Positions 1 through 3,582 of a DNA stretch of 13,181 nt are shown here, piece after piece. The stretch is from contig JABDPP010000134.1 in assembly GCA_013042765.1 (NCBI GenBank), positions 1 through 13,181 of the forward strand, read 5' to 3'. How positions within the stretch are numbered: position 1 is the stretch's first letter; every line of letters begins with the position of its first letter. The notes beneath the pieces were generated by a model, which saw nothing but the letters and a program-made list of their open reading frames with translations, was not told where the DNA came from and searched no databases. The stretch is from Litoreibacter sp. (lineage in GTDB: Bacteria; Pseudomonadota; Alphaproteobacteria; Rhodobacterales; Rhodobacteraceae). Both the position numbers and the translations under genes were made by a program.

Positions 1-2692
1 GTTCTGCGGTCTCGGCATCGACAAACACTGTCGGTGCAGCCTCCAGCGAGGCCCCGATCACCTTCTCCTGACGCTGGAGTTCCAGCGCACCGGTCACGAC
101 GCGGCGCACGCGGCGCAGCTGCGCCCACTTGGTGGCAAGGTCTTTGTCGCGCCACTCCGCCGGCGTTTGAGGAATATCGGTCAGGTGAATAGAACTGTCC
201 TCACCCGGGAAGCGCTCCAGCCAGACCTCTTCCATGGTGAACACCAGCACCGGTGCCAGCCATGTGGTCAGGCGATGGAACAGCAAATCCAGCACGGTGC
301 GAGCAGCGCGACGCCGCTGGGTATCGCCGTCGCAGTAGAGCGCGTCCTTGCGAATGTCGAAGTAGAAGGCAGAAAGCTCGACCGTTGCAAAGGTGAAGAT
401 GGCCTGAAACACGCCCTGGAAATCGTATTTGGCGTAGCCCTCGCGCACCGCCTCATCAAGCTCCGCCAACCGGTGCAGCACCCAGCGCTCGAGCTCGGGC
501 ATATCGGCAGGGTCCACCCGATCCTCCGGCGTGAAGGCCGACAGGGAACCCAGCATGAAACGCATCGTGTTGCGCAAGCGCCGGTAGCTGTCCGCCGTGC
601 CTTTCAGGATTTCCGGCCCGATCCGCTGGTCATTGCTGTAATCGGTCTGCGCCACCCAAAGCCGCAGGATATCGGCGCCATATTGTTTGACCACCTGATC
701 CGGCGCGATGATGTTGCCCAGCGACTTGGACATCTTCACGCCCTTCTCGTCCAGCGTGAAGCCATGCGTCAGCACACCGCGATAAGGCGCACGCCCCTGG
801 GTGCCGCAGCTTTGCAGCATCGAGGAATGGAACCAGCCGCGATGCTGGTCGGTGCCTTCAAGATAAAGATCGGCCAGCCCGTCGTCGGAGCCGTCCTCCC
901 GGTCACGCAGAACGAAGGCGTGGGTTGATCCGGAATCAAACCAGACGTCGAGAATATCGAACACCTGCTCATAGTCGTCGGCGGCATGGTCATTGCCGAG
1001 GAAGCGCTCCTTGGCGCCGTCCTTGTACCACGCATCCGCGCCCTCGGCCTCGAAGGCCTCCAGAATGCGGGCGTTGACCGCGTCGTCGCGCAGCAGGTAA
1101 TCCGCGTCGGTCGGCAAAGCCCCTTTTTTGACGAAACAGGTCAGCGGAACGCCCCAGGCGCGCTGCCGCGACAAGACCCAGTCAGGCCGCGCTTCGATCA
1201 TCGAGTAGAGCCGGTTGCGCCCGGTTTTCGGCGTCCAGGTCACCAGCTCGTCAATGCTGCGCAAGGCCCGCTCACGGATCGTCTTGCCATAGGTGTCCTG
1301 CCCGTCGCCGACCGGCTTGTCGATTGCAGCAAACCATTGCGGCGTGTTGCGGTAGATCACCGGCGCTTTCGAGCGCCAGCTATGCGGGTAGCTGTGCTTG
1401 ATCTTGCCGCGGGCCAGAAGCCCGCCCACCTCGATCAGCTTGGCTATGATGGCAGAGTTCGCATTGCCCTCCTTGCCGTTGGGTTTGAGGATCGCCTTGC
1501 CGCCAAAGAAGGGCAGATCATCGCGGAACCGTCCGTCCTCCATGACGTTATAGGTGATCACCTGCTCGAGCATGCCGAGATCGCGATAAAGCTCGAACTC
1601 CTCCATCCCGTGCGAGGGCGCGCAATGCACAAAGCCGGTGCCTTCCTCGTCGGTCACAAAATCAGCCGCGCGGAAATCGCGGATATCGTCCCACTCGCCC
1701 TCGCCGCCCTCGGCCCCGGCCAGCGGATGCGTCAGCTGGATCTTCGCCAGATCGTCCTGGGAGACATCGCAAAGCCGACGGTACATCGTCTCGTCCAGGC
1801 GCGCGCGGCCCAGGACATCCGCCGCAAGCTTGTCCGAAAGGATATAGCGGTCCCCGATCCTGGCCCAGCATTCCTCGGGACGCCCGGTAACCTCGTAAAG
1901 CCCGTAGGAGATATCCTCGCCATAGACCACCGCCTTGTTGGAGGGCATCGTCCAGGGCGTCGTCGTCCAGATCACCACATGAGCATCGTCCAGCGTTGCG
2001 TCGCCAGTGTTGACCACACGGAACTTCACCCAGACAGTGAAACTTTCCTTGTCGTGATACTCGACCTCAGCCTCGGCCAGCGCGGTCTGTTCCACGGGCG
2101 ACCACATCACGGGTTTTGAACCCTGATACAGCGTCCCGTTCATCAGGAACTTCTGGAATTCCTCGGCGATGACCCGCTCGGCATGGAAATCCATCGTCAG
2201 ATAGGGATCTTCCCAATTGCCCGTCACGCCAAGGCGCTTGAACTCGTCGCGCTGGATATCGACCCAGCCTTCCGCGAACTTCCGGCATTCCTGGCGGAAA
2301 TCGACGATGTCCACGTCATCCTTGTTGCGCCCCTTAGCGCGGTATTGCTCCTCGATCTTCCACTCGATCGGCAAGCCGTGGCAGTCCCAACCCGGAATAT
2401 AACGCGCATCATGGCCCATCATCTGCTGGGAGCGTACCACCATATCCTTCAGGATCTTGTTCAGCGCGTGCCCGATATGGAGATGACCATTTGCATAGGG
2501 CGGGCCGTCATGCAGCGTAAAGCTGGTCCGGCCTTCCTTTTCGCGCAACCGGCTGTAGACACCGATCCGCGCCCATTTCTCCAGCCATTCCGGCTCGCGC
2601 TTTGGCAGACCCGCGCGCATCGGAAAGCTCGTCTGCGGCAGGTTCAGCGTTGTCTTGTAATCGGGTTTCGTCTGGGGTGTGTCGGCGCACAT
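1..2692 (-). CDS. ileS: Isoleucyl-tRNA synthetase, 3' end beyond window
   Basis: Class I aminoacyl-tRNA synthetase that charges tRNA-Ile with isoleucine in the cytoplasm. About 897 codons are visible; the C-terminus, including any zinc-binding tail, lies off the left edge. The catalytic signature HIGH is at residues 72-75 inside [12 protein letters not shown], and KMSKS is near residue 651, preceded by the THGF..DEKG stretch typical of IleRS. The CP1 editing domain shows [14 protein letters not shown] (about residue 240) and [16 protein letters not shown] (about 351-366). The position matching the editing Asp342 of the E. coli enzyme is Glu365 here. The anticodon-binding domain follows KMSKS. 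I chose the ATG at 2692 because AAGGA (minus strand, 2705-2701) lies 8 nt upstream and the protein then begins [19 protein letters not shown], as in related enzymes. A 144-nt leader with attenuator features precedes it. Confidence 0.97.
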
Positions 2693-2749
2693 ATCGGGCG
2701 TCCTTGCTCAGTATTTCGGGAGTGGTCTCGGAGGGGTATGGGGCGGTGC

Positions 2750-2798
2750 GACAGCGCAAACACCTTTGCCCGGCGTCTCATCAGATCAGAGCGCCGGG
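2750..2798 (-). promoter_or_regulatory. Candidate ileS attenuator: two mutually exclusive hairpins
   Basis: Hairpin 1 pairs CCCGGCG+TCT (2798-2788, with one bulged C at 2791) with AGA+CGCCGGG (2778-2769) around a 9-nt loop, giving ten base pairs. Its 5' arm starts at the last base of the fourth Ile codon and includes the leader stop codon. The 3' arm can instead form hairpin 2, GACGCCGGGCAAA (2777-2765) with TTTGCGCTGTC (2760-2750) around a GGTG loop, with one mismatch, one wobble and a 2-nt bulge. The two cannot coexist. No T-run follows either hairpin, so a simple intrinsic terminator is not indicated. The following bases, 2750-2706, are C-rich and G-poor (I count about 22 C and 7 G), as in a Rho loading site. 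In addition, CGGGC of the 3' arm (2772-2768) could pair with GCCCG just before the ileS start. Confidence 0.5.
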
Positions 2799-2836
2799 AT
2801 TGTAATTCGAATGATAGTATCGAAACCTTGCATCAT
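2786..2836 (-). CDS. Predicted ileS leader peptide (MMQGFDTIIRITIPAL)
   Basis: This 16-codon reading frame lies 94 nt before ileS and has Ile codons at positions 8, 9, 11 and 13 (ATC, ATT, ATT, ATC). The stop codon TGA is at 2788-2786. Four Ile codons in six positions directly upstream of an isoleucyl-tRNA synthetase gene is what a ribosome-stalling leader peptide looks like. There is no convincing Shine-Dalgarno: only GGGG sits 2 nt before the first ATG, or 5 nt before the second (2833). The first ATG falls at the predicted transcription start, so translation may be leaderless. I recall that the trpL leader of Sinorhizobium meliloti is arranged this way. Stalling at codons 8-9 would leave the following hairpin arm free, whereas a ribosome at the stop codon would cover it. 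This is an inference from sequence; no homology search was possible. Confidence 0.62.
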   Translation of the reverse strand: MMQGFDTIIRITIPAL

Positions 2837-2843
2837 CGCCCCG

Positions 2844-2872
2844 CTTATAGAGACCTCTCCCGCAAGGGTCCA
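2844..2872 (-). promoter_or_regulatory. Predicted housekeeping promoter of ileS and its leader
   Basis: On the minus strand a -35 hexamer TGGACC (2872-2867, 4 of 6 to TTGACA) is separated by exactly 17 bp from a -10 hexamer TATAAG (2849-2844, 5 of 6 to TATAAT). Seven bases later comes the A of the first ATG of the leader peptide (2836), the expected +1 position. Confidence 0.55.
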
Positions 2873-2967: not shown

Positions 2968-3000
2968 CAAAAGAAAAGCGCGCCCCGGCAGGGACGCGCT
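2968..3000 (-). terminator. Rho-independent terminator of hsp20
   Basis: On the minus strand AGCGCGTCCC-TGCC-GGGGCGCGCT (3000-2977) forms a ten-base-pair stem (one T-G wobble) with a 4-nt loop, followed at once by TTTCTTTT. It begins 25 nt after the hsp20 stop codon. It is the clearest intrinsic terminator in the window and insulates ileS from heat-shock transcription. Confidence 0.88.
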
Positions 3001-3025: not shown

Positions 3026-3481
3026 TCAGGCCTCGATGGCCTTACCTTCGATCCGGTCGCCCTTGGCGATCTCGATCTGGCGCGGCTTCAGCGCTTCGGG
3101 CACCTCGCGCACGAGATCGACGTGAAGCATACCGTCGATATGGGCAGCACCGCTCACGCGCACATGATCAGCAAGGTGGAACCGCTTCTCAAAGGCCCGT
3201 GTGGCGATACCGCGGTGAAGATAGGTTCGCTCCTCGCCCTCGTCCGCCTTGGAGGCAGCAATCACCAGCGCATTCTCGCGCTGCTCAACGGTCAGATCCG
3301 CCTCGGAGAACCCTGCAACAGCCACGGAAATGCGGTAGCTGTCCTCGCCGGTCTTCTCGATATTGTAGGGCGGGTAGGTGGAATGGTTGACCTCGCTGGC
3401 CAGAACCCGGTCCATCAGGTCCGTAACGCGGTCAAAACCTACGGTTGCACGGTAAAGTGGGGAAAAATCATAAGGTCGCAT
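3026..3481 (-). CDS. Small heat-shock protein, Hsp20/IbpA family
   Basis: ATP-independent cytoplasmic chaperone of 151 residues that binds unfolding proteins and holds them for DnaK/ClpB. The N-terminus MRPYDFSPLYRATVGFDRV is the IbpA-type opening. The alpha-crystallin domain spans roughly residues 36-128 (YNIEKTGEDSYRISVAVAGF at the start, DGMLHVDL near the end), and the C-terminal IxI motif used in oligomer assembly is IEI at 136-138. The frame could begin at a TTG at 3505, but I prefer the ATG at 3481: it has AAAGGA upstream at normal spacing and gives the conserved N-terminus. The gene stands alone, with its own sigma-32-like promoter, a thermosensor-like leader and a strong terminator, so it is probably a monocistronic heat-shock unit. 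It resembles IbpA more than IbpB, but alphaproteobacterial names vary, so no symbol is given. Confidence 0.95.
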   Translation of the reverse strand: MRPYDFSPLYRATVGFDRVTDLMDRVLASEVNHSTYPPYNIEKTGEDSYRISVAVAGFSEADLTVEQRENALVIAASKADEGEERTYLHRGIATRAFEKRFHLADHVRVSGAAHIDGMLHVDLVREVPEALKPRQIEIAKGDRIEGKAIEA

Positions 3482-3582
3482 GCTGTCATCCTTTCGAAAA
3501 AGCAATGTTGCGTTGGCACAGCCCTCCCTCTTCGGACAGGCTGCTTGTTGAGAACGCCCGGACCCTGAAGCGGCACCCGGAC
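3482..3582 (-). promoter_or_regulatory. ROSE-like RNA thermometer in the hsp20 leader
   Basis: The ~100-nt leader ends in a hairpin at 3507-3487. Arm CATTGCTTT pairs with AAAGGATG around a TTCG loop, so the AAGGA Shine-Dalgarno is paired with TTGCT and the G of TTGCT is left bulged. A U(U/C)GCU sequence opposing the Shine-Dalgarno, with a G left over, is the diagnostic feature of ROSE elements, which melt on heating and are known upstream of small heat-shock genes in Rhizobiales. Upstream, CAGCC/GGCTG with inner TCC/GGA gives a second hairpin (about 3549-3525). No folding program was run. Confidence 0.68.

Follow-up and report, generated by a model that had tools for sequence, protein, structure and literature searches.

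Amino-acid operons such as trp, ilv, leu, and pheST are controlled by ribosome-mediated attenuators. The Sinorhizobium meliloti trpL leader uses an intrinsic terminator, and T-boxes read tRNA without a ribosome. Here, we analyzed a leader upstream of ileS, the gene for isoleucyl-tRNA synthetase, on the minus strand of a 13,181-nucleotide (nt) stretch of DNA from Litoreibacter sp. (Rhodobacteraceae; assembly GCA_013042765.1, contig JABDPP010000134.1). This stretch, called the window below, is one contig of a 2.6-Mb genome that is 80% complete. The leader holds a short open reading frame (ORF) that ends at a hairpin. Very probably it is translated, with a single AUU codon preceded by CGA as the specifier through which Ile-tRNA is sensed. 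At the sensor, the feature works like the ribosome-mediated attenuators.

The leader resembles the trp, ilv, leu, and pheST systems in its short ORF, in cognate codons that overlap hairpins, in a stop codon by a hairpin, and in the class of its target genes. It differs from them in having one near-fixed specifier after CGA at a fixed 8 nt from the hairpin, in being probably leaderless with no U-tract terminator seen, and in that the same core precedes ileS, a small acetolactate-synthase (AHAS)-like gene, and leuA within one bacterial class. The papers cited here are represented by excerpts of their text. As in our case, S. meliloti trpL is a leaderless leader ORF with cognate codons in an alphaproteobacterium, but these are Trp codons and the excerpts do not describe a CGA-AUU core (PMC10117765). 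A ribosome-profiling-based map of Caulobacter crescentus contains an ileS leader coding sequence (CDS), CCNA_03934, which was used as a negative control (Schrader et al. 2014; PMC4117421). Our leader is like CCNA_03934 as a leader CDS upstream of an alphaproteobacterial ileS, and the ilvIH leader of C. crescentus also counts among its closest known counterparts; the excerpts do not give a mechanism, motif, or conservation for CCNA_03934, and the comparison is by description, not by sequence (PMC4117421). The T-box of ileS likewise ties expression to tRNA charging through a specifier codon (PMC1262725; PMC2494555), whereas our leader matched no Rfam model, neither at the gathering score across the window nor at an E of 5 in 2600-2950. 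Among 125 proteobacterial genomes in a 2008 survey, just 2 had T-boxes, both before leuA (PMC2494555). The element was not described in the titles listed by searches of the openly licensed literature or in the excerpts, and the nearest report was that of Schrader et al. (2014; PMC4117421). We conclude that it is a real, conserved leader attenuator, uncharacterized as far as we searched. An earlier note on this DNA had suggested that such a leader may be new for an alphaproteobacterial ileS; this has to be narrowed, since the Caulobacter leader CDS had already been mapped, if only as a negative control.

The leader reading frame and its hairpins in Rhodobacteraceae

Conservation was examined in a family set of 80 ileS loci, the best among at least 597 that were confirmed in a scan of genome contigs. 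All 80 loci were used, and all come from Rhodobacteraceae or near relatives. The coordinates of the window's features are listed in Table 1. The leader frame in the window reads ATG ATG CAA GGT TTC GAT ACT ATC ATT CGA ATT ACA ATC CCG GCG CTC TGA and contains four Ile codons. A frame joining ATG, core, and stop was found at 80/80 family loci. An upstream ATG in this frame was present at all 80 (12 and 1 for the remaining frames), as was a stop within 36 nt (12 and 22 in the others), and at 73 of the 80 every ATG lying 15-45 nt upstream of CGA was in frame. The ATG stood 7, 8, or 9 codons ahead of CGA, except at L022 (12) and L072 (13). As shown by this comparison of sequences, the frame of a short, apparently translated ORF upstream of ileS has been maintained.

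Table 1. Coordinates of the ileS leader features in the window
Feature	Position	Strand	Details and basis
-35-like element TGGACC	2867..2872	minus	sequence and relatives
-10 element TATAAG	2844..2849	minus	17 nt after TGGACC, 7 nt before leader ATG at 2836
Leader ORF MMQGFDTIIRITIPAL	2786..2836	minus	stop UGA 2788-2786; sequence and frame conservation
CGA Arg codon preceding the specifier	2807..2809	minus	CGA in 78/80 relatives
AUU, proposed specifier (sensor) codon	2804..2806	minus	80/80 relatives; CUU instead at leuA
Hairpin P1	2769..2798	minus	5' arm CCCGGCGCUC 2798-2789, loop 2788-2780, 3' arm GAGACGCCGGG 2779-2769
Alternative pairing, P1 3' arm CGCC (2775-2772) with P2 5' arm GGUG (2764-2761)	2761..2775	minus	possible
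Hairpin P2, covarying register	2745..2764	minus	GGUGU 2764-2760 paired to GCACC 2749-2745; further pairs inside
C-rich, G-poor spacer, candidate Rho-loading region	2706..2744	minus	inferred
Shine-Dalgarno-like AAGGA of ileS	2701..2705	minus	sequence
ileS, isoleucyl-tRNA synthetase	1..2692	minus	start at 2692; truncated by window end

Within this frame, the core CGAATTA was exact at 78/80 loci. The two exceptions have CAG (L051) and GCC (L060) before ATTA, which was itself kept at 80/80, and the A directly after AUU (2803 in the window) was invariant across the family alignment. Both codons are uncommon in the ileS genes that follow these leaders, where CGA makes up 1.6% of Arg codons, AUU 10.1% of Ile codons, and AUA 0.5%.

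The family consensus peptide is M(T/M)xxxAIIIRI(I/T)xPAL. Ile occupies positions -3, -2, -1, +1, and +2 from the Arg codon at 56, 68, 69, 80, and 46 of the 80 loci. Its codons become rarer nearing the hairpin: AUC accounts for 47/56, 28/68, 2/69, and 0/80 from -3 to +1, and the codon after AUU, when Ile, is AUC in 11/46 and AUA in 29/46. At 7/80 loci, a scan listed no frame with three or more Ile codons, so the Ile run is not essential. On these counts, it is best described as an embellishment of the family that is common and not universal.

A predicted hairpin, P1, overlaps the end of the leader ORF and is followed by a second, P2. The lowest-energy fold of the window likewise contains P1, which has ten pairs and one bulged A (2776). 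P2 appears in that fold in a longer register (2764-2742), unlike the covarying one, which ends at 2745. The covariance model was built from 78 rows, namely the window and 77 of the 80 loci, with L025, L065, and L087 omitted as near-duplicates by eye. In every one of the 78 rows, the distance from the first base of AUU to the start of the P1 arm is 8 nt, with no gaps. P1 and P2 pair in 95.8% of alignment cells, and 9/17 pairs have changed on both sides; none of 500 shuffles reached that, and pairing fell to 34-47% when the partners were slid along, with both controls only partly removing the relatedness of the rows. The third pair of P2 is CG in 37, UA in 33, and UG in 4 of the 78. The folding energy of the window sequence was ordinary (z -0.68, with 54/200 shuffles as good).

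Much of the earlier note's description was borne out by these results. The promoter TGGACC-17-TATAAG and the four-Ile frame are present on the minus strand as it described. Its comparison of choice, an alignment of ileS upstream regions from Rhodobacteraceae, returned a conserved frame and covarying arms, in keeping with its proposal of an ileS leader ORF whose cognate codons overlap a conserved hairpin. The ten-pair hairpin also stood. The frame does not end inside the 5' arm, as had been stated; the stop codon sits in the P1 loop, right after the arm.

The core element across Alphaproteobacteria and its codon at leuA

Using the covariance model with strict filters (E <=0.001), the element was detected in 356/394 family genomes, as a single copy except in G460 and G645, which have two. 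The same model matched ten of 385 genomes of the class Alphaproteobacteria, five from the family and five others. Three of the latter matches lie upstream of ileS (L093, L096, L097) and one upstream of a small protein gene (L095, the same as site L302), while L094 is without an ileS match. At L096, in a 1.1-Mb AT-rich genome (G089), the element is kept before ileS as MKFNKQIIIRIINPTSL and a stop, as read from the sequence, with the CCCG stem retained. An IleRS-like match was present in all 144 class genomes searched. Upstream sequences were read at 90 of these loci, namely the 30 best and 60 others chosen among the matches listed; three belong to the family and 87 do not. Of the 87, 26 were flagged by a loose filter, two of them (L136, L179) weakly. 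Outside the family, leader peptides such as MSRQNRQRIPRIITPAL and MAQRSAFAGMRIIGPAL are not rich in Ile, but R-I-x-x-P-(A/V) recurs in them.

The simple pattern CGAATTA-N4-CCCGG...CCGGG was found in 84/372 sampled Alphaproteobacteria genomes. The reversed control pattern had two occurrences among the matches listed. A phase control, shifted by one base, gave scattered matches in 27/144 genomes and none in the window genome, G000, G022, or G154. In a sample of the phylum, the pattern was present in 34/73 class genomes versus 1/146 other Pseudomonadota. The stem extends beyond CCCGG/CCGGG by 3.9 further pairs on average, compared with 0.75 when shuffled, and there are several pair types per position.

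The genes behind the element were assigned at 83 sites in 80 loci (30 plus 50 fetched from a longer listing) by tblastn comparison with IleRS and with seeds drawn from the loci (E of 0.01). Twenty-nine sites precede ileS, at three of which (L253, L254, L284) the small gene named next was read between leader and ileS; 40 precede a small protein of about 90-120 residues, four an NTF2-like gene, and ten matched none of the seeds. The last group includes L276, before a threonine ammonia-lyase gene, and L303, L314, L251, and L313. In the same group, AAA_33-type proteins were identified by Pfam at L311 and by likeness at L280, L298, L320, and L309, and the label "NTF2-like" denotes a match below cut-off (E 0.0073). 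The small protein had no Pfam match at cut-off. Weak matches to ACT_AHAS_ss (E 0.031, one of three proteins) and, by profile, to the small subunit of acetolactate synthase III in the PDB (E 0.0099) tentatively suggest an AHAS-like protein.

L251 and L313 have no in-frame ATG and were dropped, leaving 81 sites, of which 77 have an in-frame ATG, versus 6 and 10 in the other frames. Among the 29 sites before ileS, 27 have a stop within 42 nt of CGA, against 5 and 9 in the other frames. From the sequences, the wider core is CGA-AUU-A, four bases, and the CCCGG hairpin, and the single Ile codon shared is the AUU after CGA. AUU was required by the class search pattern; it was not required in the family set, yet it is present there at 80/80.

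Other features were seen at some of these sites. Ahead of the small AHAS-like gene, many leader ORFs have no stop in the hairpin and overrun the next start codon (L246, L254, L256, L270, L273, and others), an arrangement that suggests translational coupling. At L308, L310, and L312, two copies of the element stand in tandem about 200 nt apart before this gene. Sites before AAA_33-type or NTF2-like genes (L261-L264, L280, L298, L309, L311, L320, L375) have CGAAUUA with a tighter hairpin (CCCGGCCU...), and at most of them the stop codon is within the hairpin 5' arm.

The likeliest alternative to a single AUU specifier is the model of the earlier note, in which several Ile codons act as the sensor, hairpin 1 forms when the ribosome stalls at codons 8-13, and ileS is on once it has formed. 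The Ile run at -3 to -1 in most Rhodobacteraceae speaks for it, and a ribosome stalled at the first codon of the run would, given the footprint size known in general, leave P1 free. Outside the family, however, Ile is found at -3, -2, and -1 in only 14, 19, and 6 of 81 sites, where CGA-AUU and the hairpin are present. The seven family loci without a run and the increasing rarity of the Ile codons, which probably makes them slower, nearing P1 also tell against it. We consider this model unlikely. Its sensor of several Ile codons gives way to the one AUU after CGA that is common to the wider set, and the sequence from stall to hairpin 1 to expression is doubtful because a ribosome at AUU would cover the foot of P1.

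The identity of the codon was then seen to vary with the target gene. An open-codon search, which was noisy, pointed by eye to CUU among the matches listed. When CGACUNA followed by the same hairpin was then searched for, 12/110 genomes yielded 13 rows. Six of seven distinct CGACUUA sites (L337, L338, L340, L341, L343, L344) lie about 200-280 nt upstream of leuA, called by a best NCBIfam match to 2-isopropylmalate synthase (E <=1e-93) on partial sequences that fall below whole-protein cut-offs. The seventh, L346, is without an in-frame ATG and precedes a gene unlike leuA by eye. None of the five CGACU(A/G)A sites precedes leuA; by eye, they precede other genes. A valine version, CGAGUNA, was found at one site in 110 genomes, where the gene is unclear. 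The leuA leader peptides include MKIDRLSGLLLRLTSPVL and MLTHTHLGLALRLRIPAL, and four of the six stop within the hairpin. Since the codon is exchanged along with the target gene, the codon after CGA is indicated as the specifier, and this exchange is the strongest evidence that it acts as the sensor.

A second, different leader occurs before a LeuA-like gene in Rhodobacteraceae. Its peptides are Leu-rich and end in RL (one closes with LLLLSRL before the stop), and its UGA stop begins a hairpin, CUCUGAGC...GCUCAGAG. It was seen in 8/13 family genomes examined (L349, L350, L353, L355, L356, L357, L359, L360), and the gene is 29-35% identical to LeuA. Its R-L ending is reminiscent of R-I in the ileS leader, although encoded by CGC-CUC.

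It could also be supposed that the nascent peptide ...RIxxPAL stalls the ribosome itself, perhaps with free isoleucine as the ligand, and that a shortage of Ile-tRNA is not what is sensed. R, I, P, and A are conserved in 78, 80, 80, and 78 of the 80 family leaders, which end in Pro-Ala-Leu-stop. The overlapping hairpin arm can account for P-A-L, however, and CGA and AUU are kept as codons, both of them rare synonyms. At leuA, R-L takes the place of R-I. We consider an arrest peptide quite improbable.

If CGAAUUA and the hairpin were instead a structured RNA or a protein-binding site that works without translation, the ORF would be incidental. The very strong conservation of the nucleotides fits such a site, as does the lack of an excess of stops before the small protein. 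The frame statistics of the ATG in the family and the class, the stop statistics at ileS, and the swap from AUU to CUU at leuA argue against it, and we regard it as very improbable. A T-box reading tRNA-Ile directly shares the gene and the idea of a specifier codon, and translational T-boxes precede ileS in Actinobacteria (PMC1262725, excerpt), but here the specifier lies within a conserved reading frame and no T-box or other Rfam model matched, so the chance of a T-box, from which the earlier note had already set the leader apart, is practically nil.

Start of transcription, proposed mechanism, and output

Promoter-like elements are conserved upstream of the leader. The -10 hexamer is TATAAG in 53 and TATAAC in 20 of the 80 relatives. 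A -35-like core was assigned in 75/80 (CTTTAC 29, CTGGAC 24, and others), of which 66 lie 18 nt from the -10, using a list of cores compiled only after the sequences had been inspected. A generic promoter scan of the window sequence listed no site. The distance from the -10 to the ATG is 6-7 nt in 64/80, 8-10 nt in 15, and none was found in one; the prevailing spacing fits the expectation for a leaderless message. Transcription of the ileS leader is thus predicted to begin at or next to the leader ATG at 2836. In Methylorubrum extorquens, the reported transcription start site is an A that follows TAGAAG by 7 nt and lies 150 nt ahead of ileS (PMC9320726, excerpt). At the class locus L374, TAGAAG stands six bases ahead of the leader ATG, which agrees with the Methylorubrum site, the sequence not being identical. 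In the window, a hairpin with a T-rich tail, similar to a terminator, is found at 2977-3000 on the minus strand, between a small upstream gene (3026-3505) and the ileS promoter. One such hairpin against 0.6 expected in shuffles is weak evidence that ileS has its own transcript.

A ribosome reaches about 12 nt ahead of the first base of its A-site codon. In the mechanism we propose, transcription would start from the leader ATG. When Ile-tRNA is scarce, the ribosome would wait with AUU in the A site, its leading edge resting on CCCGG at the base of P1. With the edge at this position, stalling would block P1, the P1 3' arm would pair with the P2 5' arm, and ileS would be expressed. When Ile-tRNA is ample, the ribosome would reach the stop in the P1 loop and depart, P1 and P2 would close, and ileS expression would fall, with Rho action at the C-rich spacer as the likeliest route. 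CGA is read by inosine-adenosine wobble, and on this basis a slow CGA codon in the P site may sensitize the decoding of AUU. For the family loci, we infer a classical 1:2, 2:3, 3:4 layout with 2:3 as the ON state. The polarity, in which closed P1 means low ileS, is as probable as its opposite in our estimate.

Several observations weigh against parts of this proposal. The P1 3' arm and the P2 5' arm are complementary in 94.8% of alignment cells without covariation of their own. A stall at Ile codons 8-9 would leave P1 free, contrary to the proposed polarity. Two of the six leuA leaders (L337, L338) run past the hairpin without a stop, and before the small protein a stop within 42 nt was found at 19/40 sites versus 4 and 18 in the other frames, which is no signal. 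Nine class sites precede AAA_33-type or NTF2-like genes, assigned mostly by likeness, with no known link to isoleucine. The element is also far from universal under the searches used: the strict filter left 38/394 family genomes without a match, 61/87 ileS loci outside the family were not flagged by the loose filter, and 288/372 class genomes had no pattern match. Finally, no consistent U-tract follows P1 or P2, terminator U-tracts being mostly lacking, and access to the Shine-Dalgarno sequence hardly changes between states. In 80 folded leaders, mean access was 0.535 with P1 free, 0.523 with its foot masked, and 0.518 with the ribosome at the stop, and the difference between the first two was small (Wilcoxon P 0.011).

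These last results bear on the output step. An intrinsic terminator was rejected, as there is no consistent U-tract, and sequestration of the Shine-Dalgarno sequence is not claimed. Because U-tracts are lacking, Rho acting on the spacer is favored as the most likely output, as a tentative choice that may well prove wrong. Across the relatives, C makes up 32% and G 14% of the spacer, a composition that would suit Rho, and C exceeds G in 73/79; the sequence upstream of the promoter, which served as the comparison, has 30% and 32%.

Taken jointly, the data could describe a family of swappable one-codon attenuators in which CGA-NUU-A stands at a fixed distance from a CCCGG hairpin in a leaderless ORF, AUU serves an isoleucine regulon and CUU serves leuA, CGA makes the codon hypersensitive, and the readout is through Rho or is otherwise unconventional. 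The isoleucine regulon would then comprise ileS, the protein like an AHAS small subunit, and threonine ammonia-lyase. We give this combined reading, regulon included, somewhat less than an even chance.

If the proposal is true, Alphaproteobacteria would match the level of the synthetase to tRNA charging at ileS by means of this leader, where other phyla use the T-box. ileS, probable branched-chain amino-acid genes, and leuA would be linked through one codon-specified device. The leader also points to targets for ribosome profiling and for the mapping of 3' ends in model Alphaproteobacteria, in which, as far as the excerpts go, an ileS leader CDS is listed without a stated function. The natural swap of one codon makes both the sensed codon and the role of the preceding CGA directly testable.

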